Of a stretch of 64,000 nucleotides of DNA, positions 7,941 through 38,837 are shown piece after piece. The notes beneath the pieces are model-generated. The model was not told where the DNA came from. It saw nothing but the letters and a program-made list of their open reading frames with translations, and searched no databases. Source of the stretch: Oceaniovalibus sp. ACAM 378 (lineage in GTDB: Bacteria; Pseudomonadota; Alphaproteobacteria; Rhodobacterales; Rhodobacteraceae); the NCBI RefSeq assembly GCF_008085915.1, contig NZ_VSJK01000002.1, forward strand, positions 62,001 through 126,000. Reading direction: 5' to 3'. Made by a program: the position numbers and the translations under genes. Each line of letters starts with the position of its first letter. Position 1 is the stretch's first letter.

Positions 7941-8066
7941 ACGGATTGGCAAGGTCGTGCCTTGCCGAGGCTGCGATCTTCTAGACGCGGCGGGGTGGGG
8001 TTGTCCATAGGGCGATTGATTAAATTCGAGGTTTCGCGTCATCGGGCGTAAAGAACCGGCCAAATT

Positions 8067-14598: not shown

Positions 14599-16053
14599 TC
14601 AGGCCAGAGCCATCGGCGCAACCACCCGTTTGCGCGCATCCCGCGTCTGAACGGCGCTGTCGATGTGCCATTCCATCAGCACGGTCAGCAGGCTCGCCTT
14701 GATCGCTGCCGATCCGGGATCATCCCACAGGTTGCGGACCTCTTTCGGGTCCGCCACCAGATCGAACATCTGGCCGCAATCCATACCGCGAAAATGCACC
14801 AGTTTGTGGGTTTCGGAGCGCACCATGGTCAGGAAATTCGCACCGGTCAGGTTTACGTCACCGCCCTGTTCGCAGAACACATGGGTCCGGCCTTCGAAAT
14901 CGTCGCCCTCTAATGCGGGATTCAGCGAGACCGCTTCGAAACTGCTGTCCGGCGTCACCCCGGCCCATTCCAGAATCGTAGGGCCAAGATCGAACAGTTG
15001 CACCATCTGGTCGACGCTGCGCCCACCGGTGAACCGCTTGGGCGCGCTGATGATCAGCGGCACGCGCGTCACTTCGTCGTAAGGGGCCCATTTCTGGCTC
15101 AGACCGTGATCGCCCAGACAATCGCCATGGTCGGACGTAAAGATGATGATTGTATTGTCCATCCGCCCGCGTTTTTCCAGCGCATCCAGAATTTCGCCGA
15201 CTTCGCGGTCGATCATTTCGACGTTGGCATAATAATAGGCCCGCAGGCGGTGCAACTCGTCCCGCGTCGGGTTGAGTTTCCATGACACGGAATCATGATC
15301 AACCTCGACATCGTGGTGGCGCTTTTCAACAAACGGCGCGGGCAACCCGGCGATTTCCTCTTCGGTCACTTCGGGCAAGGGCACATCGCGGGCCATATAT
15401 TTTTCGGCATATTCCGGCGTCGGATCATAGGGCGGATGCGGCCCGGGAAACCCGACGACCAGAAACAGCGGTTTGTCCACCGGTTTGGTTTCCAGCCACC
15501 ATTCCACCATGCCGCCGACGAAAACGTCGGAATGCAGGTGTTCGGGCATGTCCCAGGTAAACGCGCCCAGACGATCCTTGTAATCGGGGCGTTTGCGGTA
15601 ATCGACCCGCTGCTGTTTCTTCAGCCCGTGTGCCGCCAGCGCCTTGTCCCATTCATCGAAGTACCACCGGCCCTCCATGAAGCGATCCTTGTTTTCCACG
15701 ACAAAGCGTTCGGAAAATCCTGCGGGTGCGTCATAGGGGATGGTGTGCATCTTGCCGATGTTTACTGTCTGGTACCCGACAGCGGCCAGTTCGGACACCC
15801 AGGTCCGGCTCCAGGGCTGACCATTCGCCAACACGCCGTTGGTGTGCGGATAATAACCCGAGAACAGCGAGGCGCGACAGGGTACACAACTCGGCGCGGT
15901 GACGTGGCACTGTGTGAATGTCACACCGTGCTGGGCCAGACGGTCAATGTTGGGCGTGTCCATATGCGACGCACCAAGAGCGGCAATGGTGTCATACCGT
16001 TGCTGATCGGTGCAGATCAAAACGATATCGGGCTGGTTGGCGGTCTTGGGCAC
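14599..16053 (-). CDS. Cytoplasmic type I sulfatase (alkaline phosphatase superfamily)
   Basis: The 484-residue protein shows DIVLICTDQQRYDT (metal Asp), the formylglycine segment SCVPCRASLFSG near residue 56, YYPHTNGV, IIIFTSDHGDCLGDHG near 310 and a sulfatase C-terminal region. The formylglycine motif is C-V-P-C-R; the usual Ser at the fourth position is Cys. No signal peptide is visible, so it should act in the cytoplasm on an imported sulfate ester; a phosphonate monoester hydrolase-like activity cannot be excluded. GTG at 16053 follows GGAGA. It is the last gene of the tctCBA-gntR-sulfatase operon. The formylglycine-generating enzyme is not in this window. Confidence 0.88.
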   Translation of the reverse strand: MPKTANQPDIVLICTDQQRYDTIAALGASHMDTPNIDRLAQHGVTFTQCHVTAPSCVPCRASLFSGYYPHTNGVLANGQPWSRTWVSELAAVGYQTVNIGKMHTIPYDAPAGFSERFVVENKDRFMEGRWYFDEWDKALAAHGLKKQQRVDYRKRPDYKDRLGAFTWDMPEHLHSDVFVGGMVEWWLETKPVDKPLFLVVGFPGPHPPYDPTPEYAEKYMARDVPLPEVTEEEIAGLPAPFVEKRHHDVEVDHDSVSWKLNPTRDELHRLRAYYYANVEMIDREVGEILDALEKRGRMDNTIIIFTSDHGDCLGDHGLSQKWAPYDEVTRVPLIISAPKRFTGGRSVDQMVQLFDLGPTILEWAGVTPDSSFEAVSLNPALEGDDFEGRTHVFCEQGGDVNLTGANFLTMVRSETHKLVHFRGMDCGQMFDLVADPKEVRNLWDDPGSAAIKASLLTVLMEWHIDSAVQTRDARKRVVAPMALA

Positions 16054-16078
16054 GGGGGTGTCTCCGTCTGTCAGGGTC

Positions 16079-16783
16079 TTACAGGTTCAGTTGAAAGAAG
16101 CGTTCGGCCAGCACATCCAGATGGGCGCGCATGGCCGTCTGTGCGGCGTCGGGCAAGCGACGTTGCAGGGCGCGCAGGATGACGCTGTGATCTTCGACCG
16201 ACCGCACACGGTTCTTGCGTTGGCGGGTCTTGTCATACCAGATTTCCCACATCGCGCTCTGGCGCATCTTCCACAAGTGCCCGACATAGGATTCGATCAC
16301 CGCATTGCCCGAGGCCGCGGCGATCTGCAGGTGAAATTCGGCATCAGCCGCGTCGAACCGGGGAATGTCGTCCAGCGCATCGGCCATACGTTCGCTGCAG
16401 CGCTCCATTTCGGCAAGCTGTGCATCATCGATCCGTTGCGCGGCGGTATAGGCGGAATATCCCTCGATCAGGCGCCGGGCCTCCAACACCTCCCACGGGC
16501 CGGCTGCATCCTGTTCGGCCAAAGCCCCGCGGTCCGGGTCGCGCCCGGCGGCAGGCAATACGAACACCCCCGAGCTGACGCGAATTTCCACGTACCGCTG
16601 AATCTCCAGCGCCAGCAGCGCCTCGCGGACTGTTGTCCGTGACACTTCCAGTTGCGCCGCCAATTCGCGTTCGGGCGGCAACCGGTCACCGGCGGCATAT
16701 TCGCCGCTGTCGATCCGGTCGGCGATGTCTTTCGCAATGCCAAGATATCGCCGCCCGCCCGTGGGAAGCCCGATCAAACTCAT
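16079..16783 (-). CDS. GntR family regulator, FadR (FCD) subfamily
   Basis: The 234-residue protein has an N-terminal winged helix (RYLGIAKDIADRIDSG; RLPPERELAAQLEVSRTTVREALLALE, residues about 12-60). An all-helical FCD ligand domain follows, with DAADAEFHLQIAAASGNAV and metal-binding-type histidines (EDHSVILRAL, MRAHLDVL). FCD regulators commonly repress sugar-acid catabolic operons until they bind the acid. ATG at 16783 overlaps the tctA stop by four bases (ATGA). The much longer open frame upstream is the shadow of tctA. I infer autoregulation through the palindromes upstream of tctC (19793-19850). Confidence 0.9.
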   Translation of the reverse strand: MSLIGLPTGGRRYLGIAKDIADRIDSGEYAAGDRLPPERELAAQLEVSRTTVREALLALEIQRYVEIRVSSGVFVLPAAGRDPDRGALAEQDAAGPWEVLEARRLIEGYSAYTAAQRIDDAQLAEMERCSERMADALDDIPRFDAADAEFHLQIAAASGNAVIESYVGHLWKMRQSAMWEIWYDKTRQRKNRVRSVEDHSVILRALQRRLPDAAQTAMRAHLDVLAERFFQLNL

Positions 16784-18252
16784 GCCGTGTTCCTTTTGCC
16801 TATACGCGCCGCGATCACAGGCCAGATCAGCGTAAGCACGCAGAGCACAAGGAAGAACAGCGCCCAGGGCCGGCCCAGAATCTCGGTGACGTCGCCGTCT
16901 GACATCATCAGCGATGCGCGCAACTGTTCTTCGGCGATGGGCGACAGGACAAAGCCGATCACGAAAGGCCCCAGCGGCACCCGCGCCGCCTCGAGCCCCA
17001 GACCGATCACCCCGAAGGCGATCATCACCCAGACATCGGCAAAGCTGCTGTTCACCGCATAGGAACCGGTGACGCAGAACACCAGAATGATCGACAGCAG
17101 GGTCGAGCGGGGGATCTGCACCACCCGGGCGATCCATTTCACCGCGCCCCACATCATCAGCAGCATGATGATGTTGGCCACCAGATAGGCGGCGATGATG
17201 CCATAGGCGATCTCGGGCGCGTTCTGGAACAGCAGGGGTCCGGGTTGCAGATTGTGGATGGTCAGCGCGCCGATCAGGATCGCCTCGGTCACACTGCCGG
17301 GGATCCCCATGGTGATCAGCGGGATCAGCGCGCCGCCGATGGATGCGTTGTTTGCGGTTTCCGCCGACACGACGCCGGGTTCATAACCGGTGCCGAACTT
17401 TTCTGGCTCCCGGCTCAGTTGTTTGGTGGTGGAATAGCTGACCAGCGCGGCGATATTGCCGCCGATCCCGGGCAATAGGCCGATCCAAGTCCCGATGACC
17501 GACGAACGCAGCATGTTCGCGCCATGGGTTCGGATATCGGACCAATACACCGGCAAGCGTTTTTTCGGTGGGTCGATCTTCAGATCGGTCGCGGCACTGT
17601 TGGAGTCGCGCAGGACCTGACTGATCGCAAAGGCGCCGATCAGCACCGGCAACAATCCGAATCCCGACAGCAGCGTGGACGACCCGAATGTCAGCCGCGC
17701 CTGCCCGATGCTGGAATCGATCCCCGGCAAGGCAAAGGCCATGCCCAGCGCCGCTCCCATCAACCCTTTGGCCAGCGAACCCTGTGCCAGAACCGCCAGC
17801 ATCACCAGCGCCATCAGGACCAGCGTGAAATATTCCCAAGGGCCGAACTTTAACGCGAACCGCGCCAGAGAGGGCGACATGGACGCGAGAAACATCCAGG
17901 AAATCACCCCGCCCACGACTGATGCCATGATGCCCAGTGCCAGCGCCCGCTCGGCCCGGCCCGATTGCGCCATGGGATAGCCATCGAAAGTGGTGACGAT
18001 CGAGGCCGGGGTGCCCGGCATGCGCAACAGGATCGCGGTGATCAGCCCGCCAGAGATTCCGCCGACATATTCACCGATCAGCAGGGTCACAGCACTGACC
18101 GGATCCATATGGAAGGTCAGCGGCAGCGTCAGCGCGATCAGCATTGTCGCCGTCAGCCCGGGAATCGCGCCGATCACGATGCCCAATCCGGTGCCCAGCA
18201 CCAGAAATGCCAGATTTTGCCATTGAAACAAAAGGATGAAGGCGTCGATCAT
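16780..18252 (-). CDS. tctA: Tripartite tricarboxylate transporter, large permease TctA (copy 1)
   Basis: The 490-residue integral membrane protein has the TctA pattern: GTGLGIVIGAIPGLTATML near residue 20, YVGGISGGLITAILLRMPGTPAS, GIMASVVGGVISW, GLLPGIGGNIAALVSYS and NNASIGGALIPLITMGIPGS. About ten or more hydrophobic segments are visible. It forms the secondary-transport pore that works with TctB and the periplasmic binding protein TctC to import carboxylates. It starts 3 bases after the tctB stop and overlaps the gntR start by four bases. Confidence 0.95.
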   Translation of the reverse strand: MIDAFILLFQWQNLAFLVLGTGLGIVIGAIPGLTATMLIALTLPLTFHMDPVSAVTLLIGEYVGGISGGLITAILLRMPGTPASIVTTFDGYPMAQSGRAERALALGIMASVVGGVISWMFLASMSPSLARFALKFGPWEYFTLVLMALVMLAVLAQGSLAKGLMGAALGMAFALPGIDSSIGQARLTFGSSTLLSGFGLLPVLIGAFAISQVLRDSNSAATDLKIDPPKKRLPVYWSDIRTHGANMLRSSVIGTWIGLLPGIGGNIAALVSYSTTKQLSREPEKFGTGYEPGVVSAETANNASIGGALIPLITMGIPGSVTEAILIGALTIHNLQPGPLLFQNAPEIAYGIIAAYLVANIIMLLMMWGAVKWIARVVQIPRSTLLSIILVFCVTGSYAVNSSFADVWVMIAFGVIGLGLEAARVPLGPFVIGFVLSPIAEEQLRASLMMSDGDVTEILGRPWALFFLVLCVLTLIWPVIAARIGKRNTA

Positions 18253-18255
18253 GAG

Positions 18256-18729
18256 CTATCCGATGCGGATAAAAAGAAAGGTGGACAGGATCCAGTCAAG
18301 CAAAAGCGCGACCCCAAGACCCAGCGCGGCAAAGAACAGCGCGTGGCGAAAGGTGAGCCGCGACATTGCCAGACCAGAGGCTAGCACGAACAGCGGTGTG
18401 GCGACGTTGAACGGCACGCGGCCAAAATCCAGAGCGCCGACATAAACGACCAGCGCGATCAGAACCATCGTTCCGCGATAGGGGATTGCAGCCGGGCGTT
18501 CGGGTGAGGGTTCGGATTCAGAGTTGCGCGCGACCACCGCCTGTACGGCGACGATCACGGACAGGACGATCAGAATGCCGCCCAGAATACGGGGTACGGC
18601 CGCGCTCCCCAAAGGTTCAAACCGGGGTGGCGGCAGGGTGGAGGCGCCAATGAACAGGACAATGGAACCGGCGATGACAAGGGCGCACAGGGCAAGATCG
18701 CCCAGAGTGCGGCGGCTGAATTCGGGCAT
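18256..18729 (-). CDS. tctB: Tripartite tricarboxylate transporter, small membrane subunit TctB (copy 1)
   Basis: The 157-residue protein has about four membrane segments (LALCALVIAGSIVLFIGA; PRILGGILIVLSVIVAVQAV; GTMVLIALVVYVGALD; C-terminal HALFFAALGLGVALLLDWIL), the standard TctB layout. The motif PPPRFEPLGSAAVPRILG near residue 35 is typical. It is required for TTT transport but its role is structural or poorly defined. It lies between tctC and tctA in the usual order. Confidence 0.92.
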   Translation of the reverse strand: MPEFSRRTLGDLALCALVIAGSIVLFIGASTLPPPRFEPLGSAAVPRILGGILIVLSVIVAVQAVVARNSESEPSPERPAAIPYRGTMVLIALVVYVGALDFGRVPFNVATPLFVLASGLAMSRLTFRHALFFAALGLGVALLLDWILSTFLFIRIG

Positions 18730-18750
18730 GGCGGGCTCCGCTGAACAGAT

Positions 18751-18776
18751 GCCACGGCCCGGGGTCGGGCCGTGGC
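18751..18776 (-). promoter_or_regulatory. Stem-loop in the tctC-tctB gap (copy 1)
   Basis: GCCACGGCCC (18751-18760) pairs perfectly with GGGCCGTGGC (18767-18776) over a 6-base loop. It sits between the tctC stop and the tctB start and has no T run. Such intercistronic hairpins often keep binding-protein mRNA more abundant than permease mRNA. A similar hairpin sits at the same place in the second tct operon. Confidence 0.6.
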
Positions 18777-18784
18777 GCTATGAT

Positions 18785-19762
18785 TTACTGGATGGTCGCG
18801 GCGATCTTGTTCAGCTTTTCAAGCAGCTTTTCAGACTCCGCCATCGCCTCATCGCCCGGGGTCCAATAGGCCTCGAGCGTATTATTGGTGAAGTATTCGA
18901 CGATTTCGGGGTCGGCCATGGCCTTTTCCAAAGCCGCCGACAGCGCCTCGACCGCTTCGTCCGGCGTGTCCGCAGGGGCCAGCCACCAGTTTGGGTTCGC
19001 CCATGTGACGTCATAGCCAAGTTCCAGTGCCGTCGGAACATCGGGCATTTCGGGCAACCGGTTCAGGCCGAAATAGACCAGCGGGCGCAAGCCTTCCTTC
19101 TGAGCCAGATATTCCGACGCGGCGAACAGCGCTATATCGGCATTGCCACCCAGTAACATGCGCAGACGGTCAGCGGCGCTGTTGGCGGTGACATAGCGGG
19201 TCTCGAATCCTGCCGCGTCGGCGAACATTCCGCCGACGAAATGCGGGATGCTGCCAATGCCCAGCGCTTCGATCAACGAACGCGGCTCGGCCTTCAGGTG
19301 ATCGATCAGTTGCTCGATGGTTTCGAATTCACTGTCGGACCGGACCGCCCACAGGGGGCTGCCGCCGCCGGTGAACCCGAGCGAGCGGAAATCGTCCAAC
19401 CCGAAATCGCCCAGTTTCATTGCCATGGCGATCAGCGCCTGATGATGCCAGTGGATGATCGTATGTCCGTCGGCCTTGCCCCGGCGCATCTGTTGCACCG
19501 CATTGGCACCCGCACCCCCATCGGCATTGACGATGACCATGGGTTGCGACAGCCAGTCGTTTTCCTTGATTTTCTCGGCAATCAACCGGGCGACGACATC
19601 GGTGCGCCCGCCGGGTTTGAACGGCACGATCACGCGGATCGGCTCACTGGGAAAACCCTCGGCCTGTGCGTGACCGGTCGGATTTGGTCCAACCGATCCA
19701 ATCAGGGTGGCGGCCACAGCAAGGGACACACCTCCTGCCAACATCTTAATTCGACGCATCAT
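18785..19762 (-). CDS. tctC: Tripartite tricarboxylate transporter binding protein TctC (copy 1)
   Basis: The 325-residue periplasmic binding protein of the Bug/TctC family begins MMRRIKML and has a signal peptide ending near GHAQA. The characteristic PIRVIVPFKPGGRTDVVARL follows, then VNADGGAGANAVQQM, LGIGSIPHFVGGMF, LPEMPDVPTALELGYDV and PADTPDEAVEAL. It captures the carboxylate substrate for TctAB. ATG at 19762 is chosen because GGAGGAGA precedes it. It leads the operon tctC-tctB-tctA-gntR-sulfatase; the substrate is inferred to be a sulfated or desulfated sugar acid. Confidence 0.93.
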   Translation of the reverse strand: MMRRIKMLAGGVSLAVAATLIGSVGPNPTGHAQAEGFPSEPIRVIVPFKPGGRTDVVARLIAEKIKENDWLSQPMVIVNADGGAGANAVQQMRRGKADGHTIIHWHHQALIAMAMKLGDFGLDDFRSLGFTGGGSPLWAVRSDSEFETIEQLIDHLKAEPRSLIEALGIGSIPHFVGGMFADAAGFETRYVTANSAADRLRMLLGGNADIALFAASEYLAQKEGLRPLVYFGLNRLPEMPDVPTALELGYDVTWANPNWWLAPADTPDEAVEALSAALEKAMADPEIVEYFTNNTLEAYWTPGDEAMAESEKLLEKLNKIAATIQ

Positions 19763-19792
19763 CGCAAAATCTCCTCCCGGTATTTGCTTTAA

Positions 19793-19850
19793 TGGTCCAA
19801 CCAATATGGCACAGTGTCGCATCTGTCCAGACCAATTCGGTTGGACCAAT
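19793..19850 (-). promoter_or_regulatory. Candidate GntR/FadR-type operator cluster upstream of tctC
   Basis: TGGTCCAACCA at 19793-19803 is a palindrome of the TGGT-N3-ACCA type recognised by FadR-subfamily regulators. Its inverse, GGTTGGACC, recurs at 19839-19847. On the minus strand three related units start with ATTGG: ATTGGTCCAACC, ATTGGTCTGGAC and ATTGGTTGGACC. They lie 31-88 bases upstream of the tctC ATG, a position that would overlap the promoter. The likely regulator is the GntR encoded in the same operon; this is inferred from motif and position. Confidence 0.6.
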
Positions 19851-19883
19851 CCGTCGATGCGTCGTGCTCCGTGCCCTCTACCG

Positions 19884-21263
19884 TTATGAACGGCGTGCGC
19901 CCATCGCGGCCAGCTTTTCGTCCGAAAGGTAGCCATATCGGTTCATTTGTACCGGCCCGTCCGCCACGGCATCGTATCGGCGCATCACATCGTCCAGCGG
20001 TCCGTATCCATGCGCCATTGCCCAGACACCGGGCGCCTCGATTCGCGCTGCCGCCATTTTGGCCGCCAGATCGGTCGATGCTGCCGGGTGCGCTTCGTCA
20101 GGTCCGGGATACAGGATCGCGGCCGGATCGCGGGGTGTGGCGGGTGACAACGCCATGATCCGGCTTAGCGCCAGCGCGACCTGAGCCGGGGCGAAATCGG
20201 CGCGGGTGGTCAGGGCTTTCAGAAAATCCGCCTCGATCAGTGGCCAGTGCATTGTGTACATCTTGATGCCCAGCCCGTCGCAATGGGGGGCCAGCGCTGC
20301 CAGATCGGCACCCGTTCCGGTCGACAGGGGCGGCGGGAAGCCGGGCAGGAACAGTTTGCACTCGCCCTTGGATGCCTCGTCCACCATGGCCCGAAGGGCG
20401 GCGGCGAAATCGGTCACCACGGCACGGCGCAGGGCTATCATCTGCTCCAGTGCGGGATAGGCGGCAAACAGGCTGTCACGGAACCCGTCGAACCCGTCTA
20501 GCGCGATCTTTTTATGGCGGGCAGCACCATTGCCGAGTTCGGCCAGAAACCCGCGCACCCCGGCGGCGATACCCTCCATGTCGAATCCCGCTGCCCGGGC
20601 GATGGGCGCCACATGGGGCGAGAAATCGAAGAACAGCGCGTCGAAATGGTAACAGGGGTATTCCGGCCAGTCGAATTTCAGCCCATCCACCTGCGGATAA
20701 TTGCGCCACAAATCCTGTGTCAGCGCCCGCAGATAGGCCCGCAGATCGGGCGCGGCAAGCGAGGCATTGTTGTCGACCCTCGGCCGCAACACCCGGCCAT
20801 CTGGCAACAACGGCTCGTCCCCCGGCAGCGGCCCCCCGAACGTCACGCGGATACAGGGCGGCATGGCGGCCTGCACCTGCAACCAGGTCTCGACCCCCCG
20901 ATCCCTTGCCGCGTCGAGAAACCGGCCCACGGTCGCGCCCTCGGCCCTGGTCAGTTCCGTCGCGTCGGGCGGGCGATACCGCAGCCCGTCATACAGGCCC
21001 ACGTCGGGCACAAAGCTGGGCGCGGCAGTCATCCACAATTCGCGCCGTCCCCACAGCGCCCGGTCCAGCAGCCGTTTCTTGCCCAGCCCCGCATCGCCCG
21101 GCGGTTCACGGTCGCCAACCCCCTCGGGTGCCAGTGCCGCGACATAGGGCGATGTGGTGATCGACGTCGCCCGCGCCAGTCCGGCGATATTGTCAAGAAC
21201 CCGGTCGATCCCTTCGGACTGGGGGTATTCGGGCATGACGGTAATTCCCAAGGGATGGATCAT
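19884..21263 (-). CDS. Unrecognised TIM-barrel-like protein, possible cytoplasmic glycosidase
   Basis: The 459-residue protein begins MIHPLGITVMPEYPQSEG and has no signal peptide or membrane segments. Alternating strand/helix patterns suggest a (beta/alpha)8 barrel: ITTSPYVAALAP, VETWLQVQAAMPP near residue 125, VDGLKFDWPEYPCYHFD near 200, CKLFLPGFPPPLS near 310, CDGLGIKMYTMHWP near 340 and APGVWAMAHGYGP near 415. The DGLKFDWPEYP segment resembles the acidic strand-end motif of barrel glycosidases (DGIHFDYIRYP-type in COG1649/GHL10), so a hydrolase acting on a glycoside is possible, but I do not recognise the family. It is the last of six genes joined by ATGA overlaps with a sulfatase, two dehydratases and a split UxaA, so it probably acts on the same substrate. 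Confidence 0.6.
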   Translation of the reverse strand: MIHPLGITVMPEYPQSEGIDRVLDNIAGLARATSITTSPYVAALAPEGVGDREPPGDAGLGKKRLLDRALWGRRELWMTAAPSFVPDVGLYDGLRYRPPDATELTRAEGATVGRFLDAARDRGVETWLQVQAAMPPCIRVTFGGPLPGDEPLLPDGRVLRPRVDNNASLAAPDLRAYLRALTQDLWRNYPQVDGLKFDWPEYPCYHFDALFFDFSPHVAPIARAAGFDMEGIAAGVRGFLAELGNGAARHKKIALDGFDGFRDSLFAAYPALEQMIALRRAVVTDFAAALRAMVDEASKGECKLFLPGFPPPLSTGTGADLAALAPHCDGLGIKMYTMHWPLIEADFLKALTTRADFAPAQVALALSRIMALSPATPRDPAAILYPGPDEAHPAASTDLAAKMAAARIEAPGVWAMAHGYGPLDDVMRRYDAVADGPVQMNRYGYLSDEKLAAMGARRS

Positions 21264-22345: not shown

Positions 22346-23496
22346 ACGGACGGGCCCAGACGGCTGATCACCTCATCCCCGTCACCATTGCGTTCGGCGG
22401 CGGTCGTATCGCCGGAACAGATCCGCAATGCCAATGCCACCAGTTCAGGCAACAGGTCGGCGCGGGTGCGCGCGCCGGTGAATCCGGGTGAGGCGTCGAA
22501 ATCGATCTGACCGGGCAGGTGCGCGGCGGTTGCCGGATTGCCGGTCAGCTTGATCGTCGGAGCCAGCGCGCTGGCATAGGGGTTGCCCTGACCGGTGGTG
22601 AAAATCACAAGCTGCGCCCCTCCGGCAACCATCGAAGTGATCGATTCCGGCGACAGCGTTGGCGTATCCATGGCATACAGGCCGGGGCCGGGGATCGGTT
22701 CGCCCTCGGCCAATGCGCCGGAAATCGGTGAAGTGCCGCCCTTTGAAATCGCACCCAGCGATTTTTCCTCAAGCGTGGTGATGCCGCCGCTATGGTTCTG
22801 CGGCCCCGGATTGCCGATCAGCAGATTGTGCCCGGCCTGTGCGGCTATGGCATGGCGCGCGGCCACCAGCGTCAGCAGGCGTTCGGCCATGGCGGGCATG
22901 GTACAGCGGGCGGCCAACCCCGTCTCGCAGCCCAGCCATTCCAGCGTTTCCGAGAATACCGCCGCACCGCCTGCGGCAATCACATGGTCGGCGAAATCTC
23001 CGGTCAACGGATTGGCGACGATGCCCGATGACGCGTCCGAATGGCCACACTCCATGGCGACCAACAGATCGGACAGCGGGCAGGGCGCGCGGGCGGTGCG
23101 GGCCAGATCGCCCTGCATGTCCTGCCCGGCCTTGATCGCGGCGGCGGTCATTGCGGTGCCGTCCTCATCCCATGATTGCAGGGAAAACACGGCCACCGGG
23201 CGGCCGGCATTGCGCACTGCCTCGCCGAATATCGCGCCAAGCCCGTCATCAGGGGCAAGCACCAGCACCGCGCCCGCATTCGGATGGCTGGCAAGCGCGC
23301 ATAACATCTGGCGATGAAAGACACGGTCCGGCCCCACATGCCCCCGGCCATAGGGTGATGCGATCAGCACTGACCCGGGCAGCGCCGCCGCCACCCGCCG
23401 CGCCCCCGGCCCATTCAGCCCGCAGACCGACAGCACGACAAGATGATTGCGGGTGCCGGGGCGACCAGTGGTGCGGGGAAACCCCTGAAACGTCAT
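22342..23496 (-). CDS. UxaA family lyase, large subunit (altronate dehydratase / sulfolactate lyase-like)
   Basis: The 384-residue protein starts MTFQGFPRTTGRPGTRNHLVV. It contains the family motifs MECGHSDASSGIVANP near residue 165 (canonical CGGSD; here His replaces the second Gly), FSETLEWLGCE and GNPGPQNHSGGITTLEEKSLGA. It ends with TTGQGNPYASALAPTIKLTGNP. This is the catalytic Fe-dependent part of altronate/galactarate dehydratases, which also gives rise to the SuyB subunit of (2R)-sulfolactate sulfo-lyase. The SAF part is encoded separately just upstream, overlapping by four bases. Context with sugar-acid dehydratases favours a sugar-acid substrate. Confidence 0.85.
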   Translation of the reverse strand: MTFQGFPRTTGRPGTRNHLVVLSVCGLNGPGARRVAAALPGSVLIASPYGRGHVGPDRVFHRQMLCALASHPNAGAVLVLAPDDGLGAIFGEAVRNAGRPVAVFSLQSWDEDGTAMTAAAIKAGQDMQGDLARTARAPCPLSDLLVAMECGHSDASSGIVANPLTGDFADHVIAAGGAAVFSETLEWLGCETGLAARCTMPAMAERLLTLVAARHAIAAQAGHNLLIGNPGPQNHSGGITTLEEKSLGAISKGGTSPISGALAEGEPIPGPGLYAMDTPTLSPESITSMVAGGAQLVIFTTGQGNPYASALAPTIKLTGNPATAAHLPGQIDFDASPGFTGARTRADLLPELVALALRICSGDTTAAERNGDGDEVISRLGPSV

Positions 23497-23759
23497 GCCA
23501 GCACTCCGGCCAGATTGTGCAGATGCACATGATCCCCCGGCGCGATGTCGCAGGTCGCATGGCCGATCACCGCGCCGTATTTGACCACCGGTGCCCCGCT
23601 GGCATGGGCGATCAGCGCCATCTTGTGGCCCAAGGCAATGTCGCAGTGCAGCGCGGGCGCAACGAGACCCGCCAGCACCGGAACCGCCCCCGCCGCATGG
23701 TCACGCAGCAGGCAGATCACCGTGTCGTCGGGATGCAGGAGAATTGCGCTGGGCGTCAT
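23493..23759 (-). CDS. UxaA family lyase, small SAF-domain subunit
   Basis: The 88-residue protein is a stand-alone SAF domain: LLHPDDTVICLLRD, LGHKMALIAHASG, VVKYGAVIGHATCDI and GDHVHLHNLAG. In UxaA and GarD this domain is the N-terminal part of one chain; here it is a separate subunit, the arrangement found in SuyAB and in several alphaproteobacterial sugar-acid dehydratases. It overlaps the mle-type gene upstream and the large subunit downstream by four bases each, so a 1:1 complex is likely. Confidence 0.87.
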   Translation of the reverse strand: MTPSAILLHPDDTVICLLRDHAAGAVPVLAGLVAPALHCDIALGHKMALIAHASGAPVVKYGAVIGHATCDIAPGDHVHLHNLAGVLA

Positions 23760-24898
23760 AGCTGCACCTCGGTGTGATCGTGCAGCAACTCGCCCATCCC
23801 GCCGACGTCGGGCGTGAAGCCCAGTCCCGGTGCGTCGGCAAGCGGGAATAGTCCCTGTTCCAGCATCAGACCCCCGCCGTGCCCCGAAAAATGGTCAAGC
23901 AGCGGGTTTTCCGAACTGTCCACCTCAAGCAATCCGTCGCCGCCCACCGCCGCCAGCAGATGCGCCGAAGCGACAAGCCCGACACCTCCGCCAAGGAAAT
24001 GTGGGCAATACCTGCGCCCGGACGCAAGCGCGTTGCGGGCAATGTCGCGCGTCGTGCTCAGCCCGCCCCATTTGCAGATGTCGGGCTGAATAACGTGCAG
24101 CGCGCCCCTGGCGATCACTTCGGCAAAGGCGCTGTCTCCGGTGACGTTTTCGCCCCCGGCCAATGGCATCTCAGCCGCTTTGGCCAGCCTTGCCCAGTCG
24201 GCGGCGGGGGCGTCAACCGGCAGCGGTTCCTCCATCCAGTCAATGCCAAGCGGCGCCAGACGGGCGCATTGGGTCAGGGCGCGGTCGATATCCCAGGACT
24301 GGTTCGCATCCAGCATCAGACGGTCGCCGGGGTGCAATGCGGCCGCGGTCGCCTCGGCGGCGGGCAGGCCCTCGTCTGGGCCAAAGCCGATGCGCTGTTT
24401 GAACCGGGTAAAGCCCAGCGCGCGCATCCTCTCGACCTGAGCGGGCGCCTTGTCAGGGCTGATGCCGCTGGCATAGGCGGGCAGCTCTCGCACCTTGCCA
24501 CCCAGATGCACGGCCAGCGGCACACCAGCGCGCCGCGCGGCCAGATCGTTCAGCGCAATGTCAAACCCACAGGCGACCTGCGCGACAGGGCCGGGTTCAC
24601 CTGATTGGATGGCAAGCCGGTGCAGCCGGGCGATAATCTGGCGGAACGGATGATCGGTGTCCGCCGTCATTCCGTTCAGCGCGATCGCGGCAACCCTTGC
24701 GGCAAGGCGGGCCCGGTGCAGATCGCCGTCGGGTGGAAAATTACACCAGATTTCACCCCAGCCCGCCGCGCCATCGTCATCCTCGATCCGCACCAGCAGC
24801 GCCGGGCGGTGGGTCATCGGGCCCATGACGGTGGCGATCGGCTGTGCCAGTTCATGGCGGAAGTGGTAGATATTCAGACGTTTCAAGGCTGCGGTCAT
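23756..24898 (-). CDS. Enolase-superfamily (mandelate racemase/muconate lactonising) protein 1
   Basis: The 380-residue protein has AAGWGEIWCNFPP in the capping domain and a barrel with FTRFKQRIGFGPDE (KxR-type base), LMLDANQSWD (metal Asp), DWMEEPLP (metal Glu), LAGGENVTG (third ligand), VIQPDICKWGG and RRYCPHFLGGGVGL. This is the mandelate-racemase-like subgroup, containing acid-sugar dehydratases and epimerases. It is clearly distinct from the second enolase-superfamily gene in the same operon, so two consecutive or alternative steps are likely. ATGA overlaps join it to the sulfatase gene upstream and the SAF subunit downstream. Confidence 0.87.
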   Translation of the reverse strand: MTAALKRLNIYHFRHELAQPIATVMGPMTHRPALLVRIEDDDGAAGWGEIWCNFPPDGDLHRARLAARVAAIALNGMTADTDHPFRQIIARLHRLAIQSGEPGPVAQVACGFDIALNDLAARRAGVPLAVHLGGKVRELPAYASGISPDKAPAQVERMRALGFTRFKQRIGFGPDEGLPAAEATAAALHPGDRLMLDANQSWDIDRALTQCARLAPLGIDWMEEPLPVDAPAADWARLAKAAEMPLAGGENVTGDSAFAEVIARGALHVIQPDICKWGGLSTTRDIARNALASGRRYCPHFLGGGVGLVASAHLLAAVGGDGLLEVDSSENPLLDHFSGHGGGLMLEQGLFPLADAPGLGFTPDVGGMGELLHDHTEVQL

Positions 24899-26352
24899 TG
24901 CGTATCCAGACGGTTCATTGATGGGTCGAGCGGCCAGATATGAGTGCCGGTAGGAGCAGTTTCCCGCGCCCAGGCGGCCAGAATGTCTTTGCGCTGTCGC
25001 CGTGCCAGCATCTTGTCACGGACCGCGCCCGCATCCCAGTCGCGGGTGATCAGCGCGGTCAGATCGGTCAGGGTGTCAGCATGGGCGGGATCACCTGCCA
25101 GATTGATCATCTCCTGCGGATCGTTGGCAAGATCGTACAAAAGCGGTTCTTCTTCTCCCGATACGATCAGTTTCCAACTGCCCCGCCGCACCATCCGCCG
25201 TTGAACCGCCCGCCCGCCGGTCCAGACCGGAACCGCATCGGTGCAATATTCCGAGAACACGGTATCGTCCCAGCCCTGCGCTGCGCCAGTCAGCAGCGGC
25301 CAGAAACTCCGTCCGTCCGCCTGTGGCAGCAGGTCGGCGCCCATCGCTTCGAGCATCGTCTGGGACAGATCGATCAGGCTGACCACCCGGTCACAGACCT
25401 CGCCCATGGGCAGGGTGCCGGGCAGGGACAGGATAACCGGCACTTTCGCGCTTTCGTCATAGAACGTGTGCTTCCACCAGACGCCGCGTTCGCCCACATG
25501 ATCGCCGTGATCCGAGGCATAGACGATCAGCGTGTCGTCGCGCAGCCCCAGCGTATCCAGCCGATCAAGTATCTGCCCGATCATTTCATCCAGCACCGCC
25601 ACCAGCCCCCAGTATGCAGCGCGGGCAAGGCGGGACTTGCGCTCGGGCACGTTGTCGACCCCGCGATTAGCGCGCCACCATGTCAGCCAGGTGTCATCCT
25701 GCCCGGGCGGGATTTCGGGCGGCGGAAGGCTGTGAAGATACCGGTCGATCCACTTTTGTGCCGCAACATAGGGCGCATGGGGCAGCATGAAACCGACCGT
25801 CAGACAGAACGGATCGCCTGTCTCGGCAATCCGGTCCAGTGCGGCAAGCGCTGCGGTGGTCACGTCGCGGTCCTTGACCTCATAGGCCGATTGCCCCGCG
25901 CCGCAGGCGATCAGGCCTTTCGGTGTGGGGTCGTTGGCCCCGTCCAGCGGGCCCATGTCATGCCATGTGCTGCCGGGGAAGTTTGGCGAATGATCGCCCA
26001 CTTCGCGCCATGCGTAGCCGCGCATCTGGTCGGGCCCAACCGAGTGCATGCGCCCGATCAGGCCGGGTTTGTACCCCGCCGCGCCCAGCGCGTGCAGCCA
26101 TGTGGGCCGCTCTGACGCAAGCACATCGTCGTTGGTCCAGCAGTCCTGCGACGAGGGATGACAGGCGGTCAGCATCGACATGCGCGAGGGCACGCAGATT
26201 GGCGAGGGGCAATAGGCGTTGGTCATCCGCACCCCCCGCGCTGCCAACCCGTCAAGCGCGGGTGTCTGGGCATGGGCGTCGCCCGCACAGCCCATGACGC
26301 GGGCGGCGTGCTGATCGGAAAACAGGAACAAGAGGTTCTTCGCAGGCATCAT
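24895..26352 (-). CDS. Cytoplasmic type I sulfatase (choline-sulfatase-like family)
   Basis: The 485-residue protein starts MMPAKNLLFLFSDQHAARVMG (metal Asp). It carries the canonical formylglycine motif CVPSRMSMLT near residue 53, then AGYKPGLIGRMHSVG, LPHAPYVAAQKW, IVYASDHGDHVGERG near 280 and a C-terminal region with EEPLLYDLANDPQEM. No signal peptide is present, so it should act on an imported ester. The ATG follows AGGAGA; a second ATG is one codon on. It heads the six-gene block linked by ATGA overlaps, 104 bases after tctA copy 2. The exact sulfate ester is unknown. Confidence 0.9.
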   Translation of the reverse strand: MMPAKNLLFLFSDQHAARVMGCAGDAHAQTPALDGLAARGVRMTNAYCPSPICVPSRMSMLTACHPSSQDCWTNDDVLASERPTWLHALGAAGYKPGLIGRMHSVGPDQMRGYAWREVGDHSPNFPGSTWHDMGPLDGANDPTPKGLIACGAGQSAYEVKDRDVTTAALAALDRIAETGDPFCLTVGFMLPHAPYVAAQKWIDRYLHSLPPPEIPPGQDDTWLTWWRANRGVDNVPERKSRLARAAYWGLVAVLDEMIGQILDRLDTLGLRDDTLIVYASDHGDHVGERGVWWKHTFYDESAKVPVILSLPGTLPMGEVCDRVVSLIDLSQTMLEAMGADLLPQADGRSFWPLLTGAAQGWDDTVFSEYCTDAVPVWTGGRAVQRRMVRRGSWKLIVSGEEEPLLYDLANDPQEMINLAGDPAHADTLTDLTALITRDWDAGAVRDKMLARRQRKDILAAWARETAPTGTHIWPLDPSMNRLDTQ

Positions 26353-26456
26353 TCATTCTCCTGTACTGCTTCTTTGGATCCGCGTTCACGCGAACGGCCA
26401 GAGGGTTCGATGGGTTCAAGGGGTGGCAGGTGGATGGCCGCAACGCAGTGGGTTGT

Positions 26457-27950
26457 TCATTTCGCGGCCTTCGACTTGCGACGCCGTTCAGCGATGAGGG
26501 GCCAGACCAGCAGGATTACCGCCATGACCGTGAACAGCAGCGGGAAGGGCCGGGTGAGGATGGGCGAATAATCTCCGCCGGTCATCATCAGCCCCGAGCG
26601 GAGCTTTTCTTCGCCCAAGGGCGCAAGGACGAAGCCGATCACGAAAGGGCCCAAGGGGATGCGCGCCTTCTCCATCAAAAAGCCAAGCACACCGAACACC
26701 AGCATCACCCAGACGTCGAACATGGTGTTGTTCAACGCATAGCTGCCGATGACGCAGAACATCATCACCACCGGCAATACGAACGCTTTCGGCAAATAGA
26801 TCAGCCCGGCAATGTGTTTCACGGTCGAGGTCATCAGGATGAACATCAGGATATTCGCGAGCAGTGCCGCGGCGATCATGCCCCACACAATGTCGTTGTT
26901 GGTCAGAAACAGGGTTGGTCCCGGCTGGATCGAATGGATGGTCAGTGCGCCGATCAGAATGGCGTCAATCACGCTGCCGGGGATGCCCATGGCAATCAGC
27001 GGAATCAGCGCACCGCCTACTGTGGCATTGTTCGCCGCTTCCGATGCTATGATGCCTTCTTCGGACCCATGGCCAAATTCTTCGGGCCTGTCGCTGACGT
27101 TTTTGGCCACGGTATAGGCGACGACCGATCCGATGCTGGCGCCGATCCCGGGCAGGATACCGATCCATGTTCCGATAAACGACGACCGCAGCAAGTTGCC
27201 CGCGCTGCGTTTCAGATCGCTCAGGGACATCAGGATGCCCGATGTATTCATCTTGTTACGCTCGGGCATGTCGGCGCGATCCATGCAATCCTTGATCACC
27301 TGCGACACGGCGAAGGTGCCGATCAGCACCGGCAAAAGCTGCAATCCGCCGTTCAGTTGATAGAACCCCATGGTCATCCGGGGCATCCCCGACGACGGAT
27401 CAACCCCCGGCATCGACACCAACATCCCCAGCAGGCCAGAGATCAGCCCCTTGACCAATGATCCCTCGGAGACCGAGGCGATCAATACCATCGCCATCAT
27501 GATCAGCGTGAAATACTCGAACGGGCCGAACCGTGTTGCCAGAATTGACAGGGGCTGTGTGATCGTCAGCAGCACGACCCAGGACACCAGCCCGCCGACA
27601 AAGGATGCGGTTATCCCAAGCCCCAGCGCGCGCCCCGGCTTGCCCGCCCGCGCCATGGGGTATCCGTCGAGTGTGGTCATCACGGACGCGGGCGTGCCCG
27701 GCATCCGCATCAGCGTGGCAGTGATCAGCCCGCCCGATATCGCGCCGACATACATGGCGATCAGCAGAACCACCGCATCGAATGGATCCATATAGAACGT
27801 TAGCGGCAGCGTCAGCGCGATCAGCATCGCGCCCGACAGCCCCGGAATCGCCCCCACGACAATGCCCAACGCCGTGCCGATGAACAGCATGAAAAACGTC
27901 CATGGCTCAAAGATATGGCCGATGGCGCCGAAAAGTGCCGGAAGATCCAA
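26457..27950 (-). CDS. tctA: Tripartite tricarboxylate transporter, large permease TctA (copy 2)
   Basis: The 497-residue membrane protein has the TctA motifs GTALGIVVGAIPGLSGAML, YVGAISGGLITATLMRMPGTPAS, GILPGIGASIGSVVAYT and NNATVGGALIPLIAMGIPGS. It shares the layout and many motifs of the other TctA in the window but differs in loop regions. The start appears to be TTG at 27950, with AAGGGGG a few bases upstream overlapping the end of tctB; no ATG or GTG lies at a better position. It works with the tctB and tctC genes immediately upstream. Confidence 0.93.
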   Translation of the reverse strand: MDLPALFGAIGHIFEPWTFFMLFIGTALGIVVGAIPGLSGAMLIALTLPLTFYMDPFDAVVLLIAMYVGAISGGLITATLMRMPGTPASVMTTLDGYPMARAGKPGRALGLGITASFVGGLVSWVVLLTITQPLSILATRFGPFEYFTLIMMAMVLIASVSEGSLVKGLISGLLGMLVSMPGVDPSSGMPRMTMGFYQLNGGLQLLPVLIGTFAVSQVIKDCMDRADMPERNKMNTSGILMSLSDLKRSAGNLLRSSFIGTWIGILPGIGASIGSVVAYTVAKNVSDRPEEFGHGSEEGIIASEAANNATVGGALIPLIAMGIPGSVIDAILIGALTIHSIQPGPTLFLTNNDIVWGMIAAALLANILMFILMTSTVKHIAGLIYLPKAFVLPVVMMFCVIGSYALNNTMFDVWVMLVFGVLGFLMEKARIPLGPFVIGFVLAPLGEEKLRSGLMMTGGDYSPILTRPFPLLFTVMAVILLVWPLIAERRRKSKAAK

Positions 27951-27959
27951 AGTGCCCCC

Positions 27960-28436
27960 TTAGACCGGAAGGTCGACGACGAAGATTTCGGTAAAGACGT
28001 ATTGCGCACCAAAGGCGGTGATCGCCGCGAGTATCAGGGCGGGCAGGATGCGGCGGCGCGAAAACCCTTCCATCCCCAGAATCAACAGCAGCAGATAGAC
28101 AAAGGTGATGATCCCGAACCCCGCCAGTTTCAGCTGCAGCGCGGCAACATAGGCCAGGGTCAGCCCCATCACGACAACGCCGCCCATCGGGTTGCCGCCC
28201 GAAAACTCTTCCCGCATTGCGGCGCCCGCATCGATACCGCGCAGCGACAGGGCGGCCCGCAGGATCACGGTAACGCAACACAGGATCACGATGACCGAGG
28301 TCCATATGGGCACCGGGCCAGAACCCAGAGGCTCGAACCGCCCGGGGGGCAGGGCCAGCGCCTGAACCAGAAAGACACCACAGATCAGGGTGATCAGGGT
28401 GGACACACCGATTTCGGTGAACGGACGACGTTCCAT
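27960..28436 (-). CDS. tctB: Tripartite tricarboxylate transporter, small membrane subunit TctB (copy 2)
   Basis: The 158-residue protein has four hydrophobic segments (LITLICGVFLVQALALP; VIVILCCVTVILRAAL; GVVVMGLTLAYVAALQL; IITFVYLLLLILGMEG and a C-terminal helix) and the motif PPGRFEPLGSGPVPIW. ATG at 28436 (MERRPFTEIG) is preferred; the frame runs 9 codons upstream. It sits between tctC and tctA, 9 bases before the TTG start of tctA. Confidence 0.9.
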   Translation of the reverse strand: MERRPFTEIGVSTLITLICGVFLVQALALPPGRFEPLGSGPVPIWTSVIVILCCVTVILRAALSLRGIDAGAAMREEFSGGNPMGGVVVMGLTLAYVAALQLKLAGFGIITFVYLLLLILGMEGFSRRRILPALILAAITAFGAQYVFTEIFVVDLPV

Positions 28437-28458
28437 GGATACCCCGGAATGACAGGTT

Positions 28459-28483
28459 GGCACGCCCCGTTGCGGGACGCGCC
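28459..28483 (-). promoter_or_regulatory. Stem-loop in the tctC-tctB gap (copy 2)
   Basis: The GC-rich sequence between 28459 and 28483 folds as an imperfect hairpin (GGCACGCCCCG / CGGGACGCGCC over a short loop). It lies between tctC and tctB exactly as in the first tct operon and lacks a T run. A role in differential stability of the binding-protein transcript is inferred. Confidence 0.5.
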
Positions 28484-28490
28484 TGAGTGG

Positions 28491-29462
28491 TCAGTTCTGG
28501 GCAGCCAGCTTTGCCACCGGCTCGATTGCGCTCCAGGTCGCGTCCAGATCGGCCTGCAGCGCGTCACCGGTCAGAAAGGATTCCGAGAACCCCTTGTCGG
28601 CCAGGAATTTCTGATACCGCTCCGTCTTGATCGCTGCGCCGACGGCGTTTGCAAAACCATCGACAGCCTCTTGTGGCGTGTCCTTGGGCGCAAAAATCCA
28701 GTTCTTGATGCAGAACGTCATGTCGAACCCTTCTTCCGTCACCGTCGGAATGTCCGGCAGGCCCTCAAACCGTTCGGGTCCGGTATAGGCGAGCGGTTTG
28801 ATCTGGCTTTCAGGATTGTCCGTTCCATCGGGCAGCAGGGTAAAGTTGATCACCTCGGCGCCTGACAGCACGGTCAGATTGGTCTGTGCTCCGGTCAGGG
28901 CGGTAAAGTTCGCCGTACCGCCGCCGACCTGTGCAAAGCGGAACTTTGCACCGGGCAGTGTTTCCTGCAACATCACCCCGGCCAGATGGTTGATCGCACC
29001 GATATTCACCCCCATGATCAGGGTATCAGGCTCGGCCTTGGCCTTTTCCAAAAGCTGACCGACGCTGTCGATCCCGCTGTCTTTTCGGACCATTGGTAAA
29101 AGGCAGAATTCACCCGTTGCAGCGACCGGTTTGAAATCACGCCAGCTGAAGTCCAGTGCACCGGTGCCTTCGCCGCCCATCAGGGCAATGTGGATGATAA
29201 CAAAGTTATATCCGTCGGGATCGCTTTCCATCACCTGCCGTGCGCCGATGGAATAATGGCCGCCGACATTGACCACAGTCACAGGTTGGCTCAGCGCATC
29301 GGCGTCCTCGATCGATGCCTGAAGGACGCGGGCAACCTGATCCGAAGTGCCTCCGGCGCCGAACGGCACGATCAGCCTGACGGGTTTTTCCGGCCACTCA
29401 GCCAGTGCGACACCCGTCGTTGCCAGCAAGGCAGCGGTGGCCAGTCCCAATAGTTTTCTCAT
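28491..29462 (-). CDS. tctC: Tripartite tricarboxylate transporter binding protein TctC (copy 2)
   Basis: The 323-residue Bug/TctC-type periplasmic binding protein has the signal peptide MRKLLGLATAALLATTGVALA, then PVRLIVPFGAGGTSDQVARV, VVNVGGHYSIGARQVM, MGVNIGAINHLAGVML, FEGLPDIPTVTEEGFDM and APKDTPQEAVDGFA. The ATG at 29462 follows GGGAGGA. It leads the operon tctC-tctB-tctA, which is followed by the sulfatase/dehydratase block in the same direction, so both probably form one long transcript. Substrate unknown. Confidence 0.93.
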   Translation of the reverse strand: MRKLLGLATAALLATTGVALAEWPEKPVRLIVPFGAGGTSDQVARVLQASIEDADALSQPVTVVNVGGHYSIGARQVMESDPDGYNFVIIHIALMGGEGTGALDFSWRDFKPVAATGEFCLLPMVRKDSGIDSVGQLLEKAKAEPDTLIMGVNIGAINHLAGVMLQETLPGAKFRFAQVGGGTANFTALTGAQTNLTVLSGAEVINFTLLPDGTDNPESQIKPLAYTGPERFEGLPDIPTVTEEGFDMTFCIKNWIFAPKDTPQEAVDGFANAVGAAIKTERYQKFLADKGFSESFLTGDALQADLDATWSAIEPVAKLAAQN

Positions 29463-34118: not shown

Positions 34119-34208
34119 ACCGGCTCTCCCAGCTTTTAGTGATCAAGATACCCGCGCCGGAAGCACGAGGTTTCAACGAAAATTTGCATCCCGCCTTTGA
34201 TGTCCGGC

Positions 34209-38827: not shown

Positions 38828-38837
38828 GGCGTTTTCT

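Follow-up and report, generated by a model that had tools for sequence, protein, structure and literature searches.

A locus joining two TctCBA importers, two sulfatases and a SuyB-like lyase in Oceaniovalibus sp. ACAM 378: a candidate cassette for small sulfated sugar acids

Introduction

Sulfate esters block the breakdown of sugars, and the well-known systems for sulfated glycans remove them outside the cytoplasm. Whether small sulfated sugar acids might be imported whole and desulfated inside the cell is the question raised by a block of 14 genes in Oceaniovalibus sp. ACAM 378, which lies in a stretch of 64,000 nucleotides of contig NZ_VSJK01000002.1 (positions 62,001 to 126,000), referred to below as the window. 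The block encodes two tripartite tricarboxylate transporter (TTT) importers, two sulfatases (SulfA and SulfB), two enolase-superfamily enzymes (Eno1 and Eno2), a lyase split into a small SAF-domain subunit (SAF) and a large subunit (UxaL), an unannotated protein designated TIM, and a GntR-type regulator. On balance, we consider it probable that the locus serves catabolism as one cassette: a small sulfated sugar acid, or perhaps a glycoside of such an acid, would be taken up and would then undergo desulfation and elimination in the cytoplasm.

If so, the cassette would account for the use of small sulfated remnants by some Alpha- and Gammaproteobacteria. Uptake by TTT carriers, S1 sulfatases and the chemistry of the enolase superfamily and of SuyAB/UxaA are each familiar, and the locus would be a variant on them that may include a new reaction. 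In the titles and abstract starts of the open-licence PMC literature we found no pathway described with these genes together, as had been supposed in an earlier note made from the letters of the window alone. The locus also provides three defined targets, namely a SuyAB-like clade tied to a sulfatase, a glycoside-hydrolase (GH)-like TIM family spread over several phyla, and a nickel-pincer isomerase group in relatives.

In the route that we propose, the two TTT importers would carry the anion into the cytoplasm, where SulfA and SulfB, activated by formylglycine-generating enzymes (FGE), would hydrolyse its sulfate esters. TIM, on the basis of its predicted fold, could cut a glycosidic bond, and Eno2 and Eno1 may dehydrate or epimerise the resulting aldonate, as their family and residues suggest. 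The SuyAB-like lyase would then carry out an α,β-elimination for which, unlike altronate dehydratase, it would need no ferric iron; the simplest leaving group would be a sulfo-oxyanion. The 2-keto-3-deoxy product would enter the Entner-Doudoroff route through KDPG-type aldolases; two genes with family matches to KDPG aldolase lie elsewhere in the genome.

Gene content and organization

All 14 genes lie on the minus strand at 14599–29462, within a source genome of 5.36 Mb in 116 contigs. They are transcribed in the order TctC1, TctB1, TctA1, SulfA, Eno1, SAF, UxaL, Eno2, TIM, TctC2, TctB2, TctA2, GntR, SulfB (Table 1), and the block is flanked by an EVE-domain gene (14152–14586, plus strand) and an EamA transporter gene (29782–30657, minus strand). 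The six genes from SulfA to TIM form a tight core: each of their five joints is a 4-nt overlap, as is the joint between TctA2 and GntR, and the core is separated from TctA1 by 104 nt and from TctC2 by 124 nt. Promoter and terminator scans gave counts close to those in shuffled sequence.

Pfam matches above the curated cut-offs were obtained for both copies each of TctC, TctB and TctA, so that both importers are complete, for both sulfatases, for both enolase-superfamily proteins (MR_MLE_C in each, MR_MLE_N in Eno1 only), for SAF, for UxaL (GD_AH_C and GD_AH_second) and for the regulator (GntR and FCD). The parts list of the earlier note, with its 14 co-directional genes, two TctCBA importers, two enolase-superfamily enzymes and a GntR regulator of the FCD kind, is thereby borne out. 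Only the families of the importers are assigned directly; a sulfated sugar acid is their inferred substrate.

The location of the enzymes was judged by scanning hydropathy over the 45 N-terminal residues, and "no evident signal peptide" is used here in that sense alone. Both TctC proteins have strongly hydrophobic N-termini (peaks of 2.03 and 1.97), in keeping with a periplasmic location. The sulfatases peak at 1.07 and 0.65, and Eno1, Eno2 and TIM at 0.87–1.10, so that these five proteins are predicted to be cytoplasmic, which agrees with the signal-less sulfatases and the intracellular route foreseen in the earlier note. Hydrophobic N-terminal stretches were also seen in SAF (2.15, from residue 26) and UxaL (1.65).

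SulfA and SulfB both have the Sulfatase domain and the C-x-P-x-R motif that define formylglycine-dependent S1 sulfatases, together with an SDHGD motif. Two FGE-family genes (PF03781; 238 and 71 bits) elsewhere in the genome are candidate activators. The sulfatases share fold family and formylglycine motif with the choline sulfatase BetC and other S1 enzymes, and the three best PDB matches of SulfA, of which 6fny is the closest, are choline sulfatases; however, both proteins fall under the choline-sulfatase cut-off (TIGR03417: SulfA 289 and SulfB 213 bits, cut-off 433) and stand in a different gene context. Choline-O-sulfate was therefore dropped as a candidate substrate. A relative of SulfB (55% identical) occurs on a plasmid of the haloarchaeon Halomontanus rarus (L108) among many sulfatase genes and an FGE-family gene.

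The split lyase belongs to a SuyB-like clade

According to section 8 of PMC6336799, UxaA/GarD enzymes share four conserved cysteines, the sulfolactate sulfo-lyase excepted. By our own alignment and spacing we mapped this rule onto C132, C166, C199 and C264 of Escherichia coli UxaA. UxaL retains C264 and lacks the three other ferric-iron cysteines.

The position of UxaL was then examined in trees. The SuyAB references were chosen by annotated context: L113 (hpsN/hpsO), L114 (putative sulfate exporter), L118 (a cluster with TTT genes, an exporter and dehydrogenases of the hisD-like, SDR, hydroxyacid and Ldh kinds) and L119 (TauE and dehydrogenases). We take these to be SuyAB in part because of the usual make-up of such clusters. 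Further references were UxaA and GarD of E. coli, UxaA of L116 and L122, and additional split proteins. In a tree of 24 large subunits, 10 proteins including UxaL form a clade of their own, here called clade F (support 100/100), beside the four SuyB proteins (100/100), and the two are joined with a Variovorax protein at 98/98. When proteins from the remaining five of the eight profile genomes (described below) are added, along with 12 class proteins of lower score, the membership of clade F rises to 15 (98/98); with second copies added as well, clade F and SuyB are each supported at 100/100 and are joined with Variovorax and the long-branched L135 at 99/98, the program warning of a possible long-branch effect at the Variovorax join.

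Cysteine is absent from the C132, C166 and C199 columns in all 15 clade-F proteins and all 21 proteins of the SuyB clade, as well as in Variovorax and L135. All three are present in eight of the nine other references (Variovorax counted apart) and in one UxaA-like class protein. The archaeal split protein HaladA also lacks the three cysteines, so their loss by itself is no proof of a sulfo-lyase. Clade F and SuyB further share a two-residue deletion, found too in Variovorax and L135, and both keep C264; the C166 column holds arginine in 8/15 clade-F and 21/21 SuyB-clade proteins. Identity between the two clades is 29–33%. SAF/UxaL thus has the split subunits and the missing iron cysteines of a SuyAB-type enzyme, and lies outside the SuyB clade itself.

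These results bear on a simpler reading of the locus, in which ordinary sugar-acid catabolism employs SAF/UxaL as a split dehydratase of the altronate or fuconate type and the sulfatases merely desulfate the substrate first. Section 8 of PMC6336799 names a heteromeric L-fuconate dehydratase on the basis of gene context, and SAF/UxaL has the SAF, GD_AH_second and GD_AH_C domains of UxaA/GarD. However, the three iron-binding cysteines are replaced throughout clade F as in the SuyB clade, and the pair belongs to a different clade from UxaA/GarD. We consider the dehydratase reading unlikely: SAF/UxaL is probably not an altronate-type dehydratase, and a split UxaA with that activity was dropped as a candidate. 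The earlier note was right in recognizing a split lyase, and has to be amended as to the UxaA type that it gave, since the pair is SuyB-like rather than of the kind of the iron-dependent altronate/galactarate dehydratases.

By analogy with SuyAB, which expels sulfite from sulfolactate, SAF/UxaL might be a new lyase that eliminates sulfate, abstracting H-2 from a 3-O-sulfo aldonate and expelling sulfate from C3. We put this forward tentatively and regard it as possible rather than probable. If it is true, sulfate would depart without the iron ligands by which the related dehydratases activate hydroxide, and hydrolytic and eliminative desulfation would occur in one locus.

Co-occurrence of UxaL with SulfA

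The distribution of the proteins was profiled in 385 genomes of the class. The searches score the four to six best candidates per genome, so that a miss does not equate to absence, and these genomes overlap in part with the loci discussed in the next section. With a limit of E ≤ 1e-80, SulfA is present in eight genomes (G000, G056, G122, G128, G178, G231, G274 and G351), the weakest match being 7e-154, and UxaL at 303 bits or more occurs in exactly the same eight, the next score being 210; the UxaL cut was set at this gap after the scores had been seen. The eight genomes represent four families, and the chance of identical sets is approximately 4e-8 with families as units, assuming 155 families as taken from handle numbers. 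In G178 and G056 the two genes are on different contigs, hence the co-occurrence is not mere adjacency. The UxaL proteins of all eight belong to clade F (98/98, or 100/100 with second copies). As a control, the 12 next-scoring UxaL proteins that were examined comprise 10 canonical SuyB, one UxaA-like protein and L135, and none comes from a SulfA genome. Strong TIM matches occur in six of these SulfA genomes and nowhere else among the 385.

L135, the UxaL relative in the stretch L149:4937-11466, groups with clade F at 96/85. Five genes away from it lies an Eno1 relative (216 bits), and SulfA is not found at E ≤ 1e-80 in the genome that encodes it.

Conservation of the locus and its two modules

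A scan of named genome contigs anchored on TIM matched 223 stretches, of which 188 were confirmed and the best 80 kept. Counts among these 80 loci are lower bounds, many loci meeting contig ends, and taxon labels come from record titles. A SulfA relative of at least 450 bits is found in 17 and a SulfB relative at the same threshold in 6, with any sulfatase of at least 60 bits in 42. TctA (at least 450 bits) occurs in 17, TctC (at least 250) in 19, an enolase-superfamily protein (at least 150) in 13 and UxaL (at least 250) in 9. A strong sulfatase accompanies TctA in 16/80 loci, all from Alpha- or Gammaproteobacteria, and every one of the nine loci with a strong UxaL also has a strong sulfatase.

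The most complete relative is in the gammaproteobacterium Granulosicoccus (L075), which keeps 13 of the 14 genes, with SAF and UxaL fused and Eno2 not seen. Identities are 67% for TctC1, 49% for TctB1, 79% for TctA1, 60% for SulfA, 59% for Eno1, 50% for SAF, 57% for UxaL, 43% for TIM, 68% for TctC2, 40% for TctB2, 79% for TctA2 and 77% for SulfB, and GntR matches at 268 bits. SulfA, Eno1, SAF, UxaL and TIM are kept in Halovulum marinum (L016) and in a Rhodobacter metagenome-assembled genome (MAG; L017), the latter also having Eno2. The SulfA and UxaL of L017, the TIM of L049 and the GntR of L075 come from a stop-to-stop search, having been missed by composition-scored gene calling. Recurrence of the set in other genera and another class indicates that the block is not a chance assembly, and upholds the earlier note on the point that it had itself chosen as its test.

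A plasmid of Paracoccus seriniphilus carries TctC-TctB-TctA-GntR-SulfB (SulfB 74% identical) with a divergent sulfatase alongside, which shares 37.6% identity with SulfA, and three alphaproteobacterial MAG loci (L049, L052 and L090) have the order Eno1-SulfA-TIM-TctC-TctB-TctA. In Acuticoccus (L051) both groups are present on opposite strands. The plasmid and the MAG arrangements argue that the 14-gene block consists of two joined modules. The single large locus of the earlier note is indeed contiguous, and is best seen as a core module, TctCBA1-SulfA-Eno1-SAF-UxaL-Eno2-TIM, joined to a free-standing module, TctCBA2-GntR-SulfB.

The occurrence of the second module on its own could also suit a locus for sulfur scavenging, in which several sulfated carboxylates are imported mainly for their sulfate and the enolases and lyase clear away the residue. 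No dehydratase accompanies the module in the stretch of the Paracoccus plasmid that was fetched, and in Neorhizobium a SulfB relative (62.5% identical) adjoins an ABC importer with a binding protein of the aliphatic-sulfonate type. However, the regulator resembles the carbon-source regulators ExuR and UxuR, and three elimination or epimerisation enzymes overlapping with SulfA would seem to exceed what scavenging needs. Scavenging in place of carbon feeding is in our judgement improbable.

Eno1 and Eno2

Both proteins have the MR_MLE_C domain and the motifs of the mandelate-racemase group, which are presumably the acid/base and metal-ligand (catalytic) motifs; in Eno1 these are K167-x-R169, D197, WMEEP, GEN, D273 and H300. 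The PDB matches of Eno1 are 3ddm (E 3e-99) and 4ggb (E 6.6e-40), the latter being, we presume, a galactarolactone cycloisomerase. The best NCBIfam match of Eno2 is gluconate/galactonate dehydratase, at 99 bits against a cut-off of 750. The catalytic motifs of the galactarolactone cycloisomerase/3ddm and galactonate-dehydratase types are kept, and Eno1 and Eno2 reach no curated equivalog. Relatives of Eno2 adjoin clade-F UxaL in L144 and L147, and SulfA in L101.

TIM is predicted to be a glycoside-hydrolase-like barrel

TIM has no Pfam or NCBIfam match, and its best PDB sequence match is to an unrelated protein (E = 0.093). An AlphaFold2 model from 6 sequences was poor (pLDDT 69), and a model from 56 sequences was used in its place (pLDDT 95.3, pTM 0.94). 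This confident model is predicted to be a barrel resembling those of glycoside hydrolases. Foldseek returned 76 rows at E ≤ 0.001, and the 50 best of these are carbohydrate-acting barrels, as judged in part from their titles: the C-domain of PgaB, GH42, Cwp19, GH156, β-amylase, GH35 and chitinases. For the top families, E ranges from 1e-7 (PgaB C-domain) to 6.4e-6, TM-score to the query is 0.34–0.52 and root-mean-square deviation is 6.5–10 Å, which indicates that TIM shares the barrel and is not a close family member. TIM has the predicted fold of these GH barrels but no sequence match to any named GH family, and forms a family of its own. The earlier note had read TIM as a TIM-barrel-like protein of no known family, which agrees with the model; the likeness to glycoside hydrolases was unforeseen. 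Invariant residues including D198, E201, H339, H392, H418 and R442 are candidates for lining a catalytic pocket that takes an anion. If TIM acts as its fold suggests, what the importers bring in may be a glycoside and not a free monomer.

TIM is found in seven of the 385 class genomes at E ≤ 0.001 (six at E ≤ 1e-90) and in two of 248 genomes of the family, that of ACAM 378 included, which constitutes a patchy distribution; none was found in viral contigs or plasmids. In Planctomycetes and Acidobacteria (L033, L045, L050, L054 and L073), TIM relatives stand beside housekeeping-looking genes, with no strong sulfatase or TctA. A thiamine-pyrophosphate enzyme beside TIM in the planctomycete locus L045 was considered as Xsc and dropped, being acetolactate synthase, with an adjoining glutamate decarboxylase; a SelA-like gene near TIM in the acidobacterial locus L073 is true selA. 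Such neighbours reveal little about TIM.

The likely class of substrate

The substrate would be a sulfated uronate or aldonate, perhaps derived from marine polysaccharides, as the earlier note proposed. An aldonate is weakly favoured over a uronate, because none of the 14 genes encodes a uronate isomerase, reductase or dehydrogenase and because two close relatives have a gene for a nickel-pincer cofactor-dependent isomerase. In Halovulum this gene lies just upstream of SulfA (L016:2049-3356) and matches group 22 of these isomerases at 436.8 bits (cut-off 400), with LarC, LarE and LarB between UxaL and TIM (L016:7375-9955); the same isomerase and Lar set occur in the Rhodobacter MAG (L017:451-1770), placed by similarity only. 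In the genome of ACAM 378 no group-22 isomerase was found with the group-22 model, one candidate having been scored. Enzymes of the nickel-pincer superfamily racemise or epimerise 2-hydroxyacids, gluconate among them, according to passages of PMC7583248. Group 22 is not named in passages of that paper, PMC11770544 or PMC12611868, and the Halovulum and Rhodobacter loci provide a metabolic context for this LarA group.

A possible role in sulfonate metabolism and other evidence against a sugar-acid cassette

Several observations weigh against a sugar-acid cassette. Its substrate and all of its reactions are inferred, and the locus is without a uronate or aldose dehydrogenase, a kinase or an aldolase. 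Strong SulfA, SulfB or TctA is found in none of 24 Acidobacteria and none of 14 Planctomycetes TIM loci (a weaker sulfatase is present in 13 and 2, respectively), and TIM outside the Proteobacteria seems to have other partners. Eno1 is not specific to SulfA genomes, occurring in 23 of the 385 class genomes, namely six of the eight with SulfA and 17 others. An Eno1 relative (323 bits) is also found inside a canonical SuyAB cluster (L150:4000-12222), with TauE, ABC-like genes, and 2-hydroxyacid and Ldh_2 dehydrogenases, hinting at a role for the 3ddm-type enolase family near sulfolactate metabolism. Seven of the eight SulfA genomes have a canonical SuyB as a second copy, and the set could therefore be in part a marker of an organosulfur lifestyle. 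Finally, a sulfonate cluster containing Xsc and Pta lies 3–11 kb from the locus (32506–42246, minus strand). It encodes a DmsC-like subunit, an Fe-S protein, a molybdopterin oxidoreductase of 943 aa, a Pta-family protein, the sulfoacetaldehyde acetyltransferase Xsc (TIGR03457, 932 bits, cut-off 676) and a MocR-type regulator. By its gene pattern, rather than by model matches, it resembles a cluster for taurine or sulfonates that includes a sulfite dehydrogenase of the SoeABC type.

Together with the tree, in which UxaL groups with canonical SuyB (98/98 and 99/98) and shares its three lost cysteines and deletion, the L150 and Xsc clusters would fit an organosulfonate locus, in which SAF/UxaL would free sulfite from a C3-sulfonate, such as sulfolactate or a larger sulfo-acid, and feed the neighbouring sulfonate genes, the sulfatases being accessory. 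TTT genes do occur in SuyAB clusters (TctC in one; TctC and a permease in another, that of P. seriniphilus), and in the genome of ACAM 378 (G000) no canonical SuyB was seen among the 5 of 16 candidates scored, two further UxaL matches there having the iron cysteines. However, clade F is separate from SuyB and tracks SulfA in 8/8 genomes, whereas the 10 SuyB genomes examined have no SulfA. Moreover, each of the seven second copies has its own SuyA gene, with a ComC-like gene near five and an SlcC-like gene near two in the stretches fetched. Clade F coexists with SuyAB and does not replace it, and is therefore not needed for sulfolactate in those seven genomes, which makes a sulfonate substrate less likely and sulfate elimination more so. 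The 14 genes also lack SlcC, ComC, HpsN, SuyZ and TauE, and the sulfonate reading leaves two sulfatases without a role. A plain sulfolactate locus was dropped, as the sulfolactate dehydrogenases, the sulfite/sulfate exporter and the HpsNOP genes of reference clusters are missing from the locus. We judge the broader sulfonate explanation quite improbable, and retain the cassette for a sulfated sugar acid.

Table 1. Genes of the 14-gene locus and a putative operator, with positions in the window
Feature	Position	Strand	Description	Evidence
TctC1	28491..29462	-	Periplasmic substrate-binding protein, importer 1	Pfam PF03401 63 bits (cut-off 27); hydrophobic N-terminus
TctB1	27960..28436	-	Importer 1	Pfam PF07331 45.5 bits (cut-off 29.1)
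TctA1	26457..27950	-	Permease, importer 1; TTG start	Pfam PF01970 490 bits
SulfA	24895..26352	-	S1-type sulfatase, no evident signal peptide, distant from choline sulfatase	Pfam Sulfatase 140 bits; C53-V-P-S-R
Eno1	23756..24898	-	Enolase superfamily (mandelate-racemase group), 3ddm type	MR_MLE_C 171 bits
SAF	23493..23759	-	SAF-domain small subunit of split UxaA/SuyA-type lyase	Pfam SAF 28.3 bits (cut-off 21)
UxaL	22342..23496	-	Large subunit of split lyase, SuyB-like clade F	GD_AH_C 246 bits; trees; cysteine columns
Eno2	21260..22345	-	Enolase superfamily, galactonate-dehydratase-like	MR_MLE_C 144 bits; D-C-H and SPHN motifs
TIM	19884..21263	-	Unannotated family, predicted glycoside-hydrolase-like barrel, no evident signal peptide	AlphaFold2 model and Foldseek
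Putative GntR operator ATTGGTTGGACCAT	19792..19805	-	5' of TctC2	Degenerate copy at 19837-19850
TctC2	18785..19759	-	Periplasmic substrate-binding protein, importer 2	Pfam PF03401 93 bits
TctB2	18256..18729	-	Importer 2	Pfam PF07331 39.8 bits
TctA2	16780..18252	-	Permease, importer 2	Pfam PF01970 482 bits
GntR	16079..16783	-	GntR/FCD regulator, ExuR/UxuR-like	GntR 75 bits, FCD 97.5 bits
SulfB	14599..16053	-	S1-type sulfatase, no evident signal peptide; GTG start	Pfam Sulfatase 172 bits; C56-V-P-C-R

The regulator and a candidate operator

Among NCBIfam models the regulator scores best against ExuR and UxuR, falling far short of the cut-off in each case (ExuR 131 bits, cut-off 396). We suggest ATTGGTTGGACCAT, upstream of TctC2, as a putative GntR operator. 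With at most one mismatch, the pattern has five matches in the window against 1.48 expected, four of them within 19684–19850; a single palindrome, matching on each strand, accounts for two of these four, and another falls within TctC2. The strict pattern is found in just two of 10 upstream stretches and is absent 5' of TctC1 in the window. Exact TTGGTNNNACCA occurs in 10 of 150 loci, two of which are the window itself and several unrelated. In Acuticoccus it is present just 5' of the sulfatase-TIM operon, inside GntR, and between GntR and TctC2; in L027 it lies near GntR-TctC2. By eye, both the Paracoccus plasmid and Granulosicoccus show ATATTGGT followed by GAC 5' of TctC2.

A possible island edge

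Elsewhere in the window, a transposase with DUF772 and DDE_Tnp_1_6 domains (2897–4438, plus strand) lies in a stretch of lower GC content (approximately 0.55 over 1–8000). This stretch ends near a tRNA-Phe gene (7866–7940), which may mark the edge of an island.

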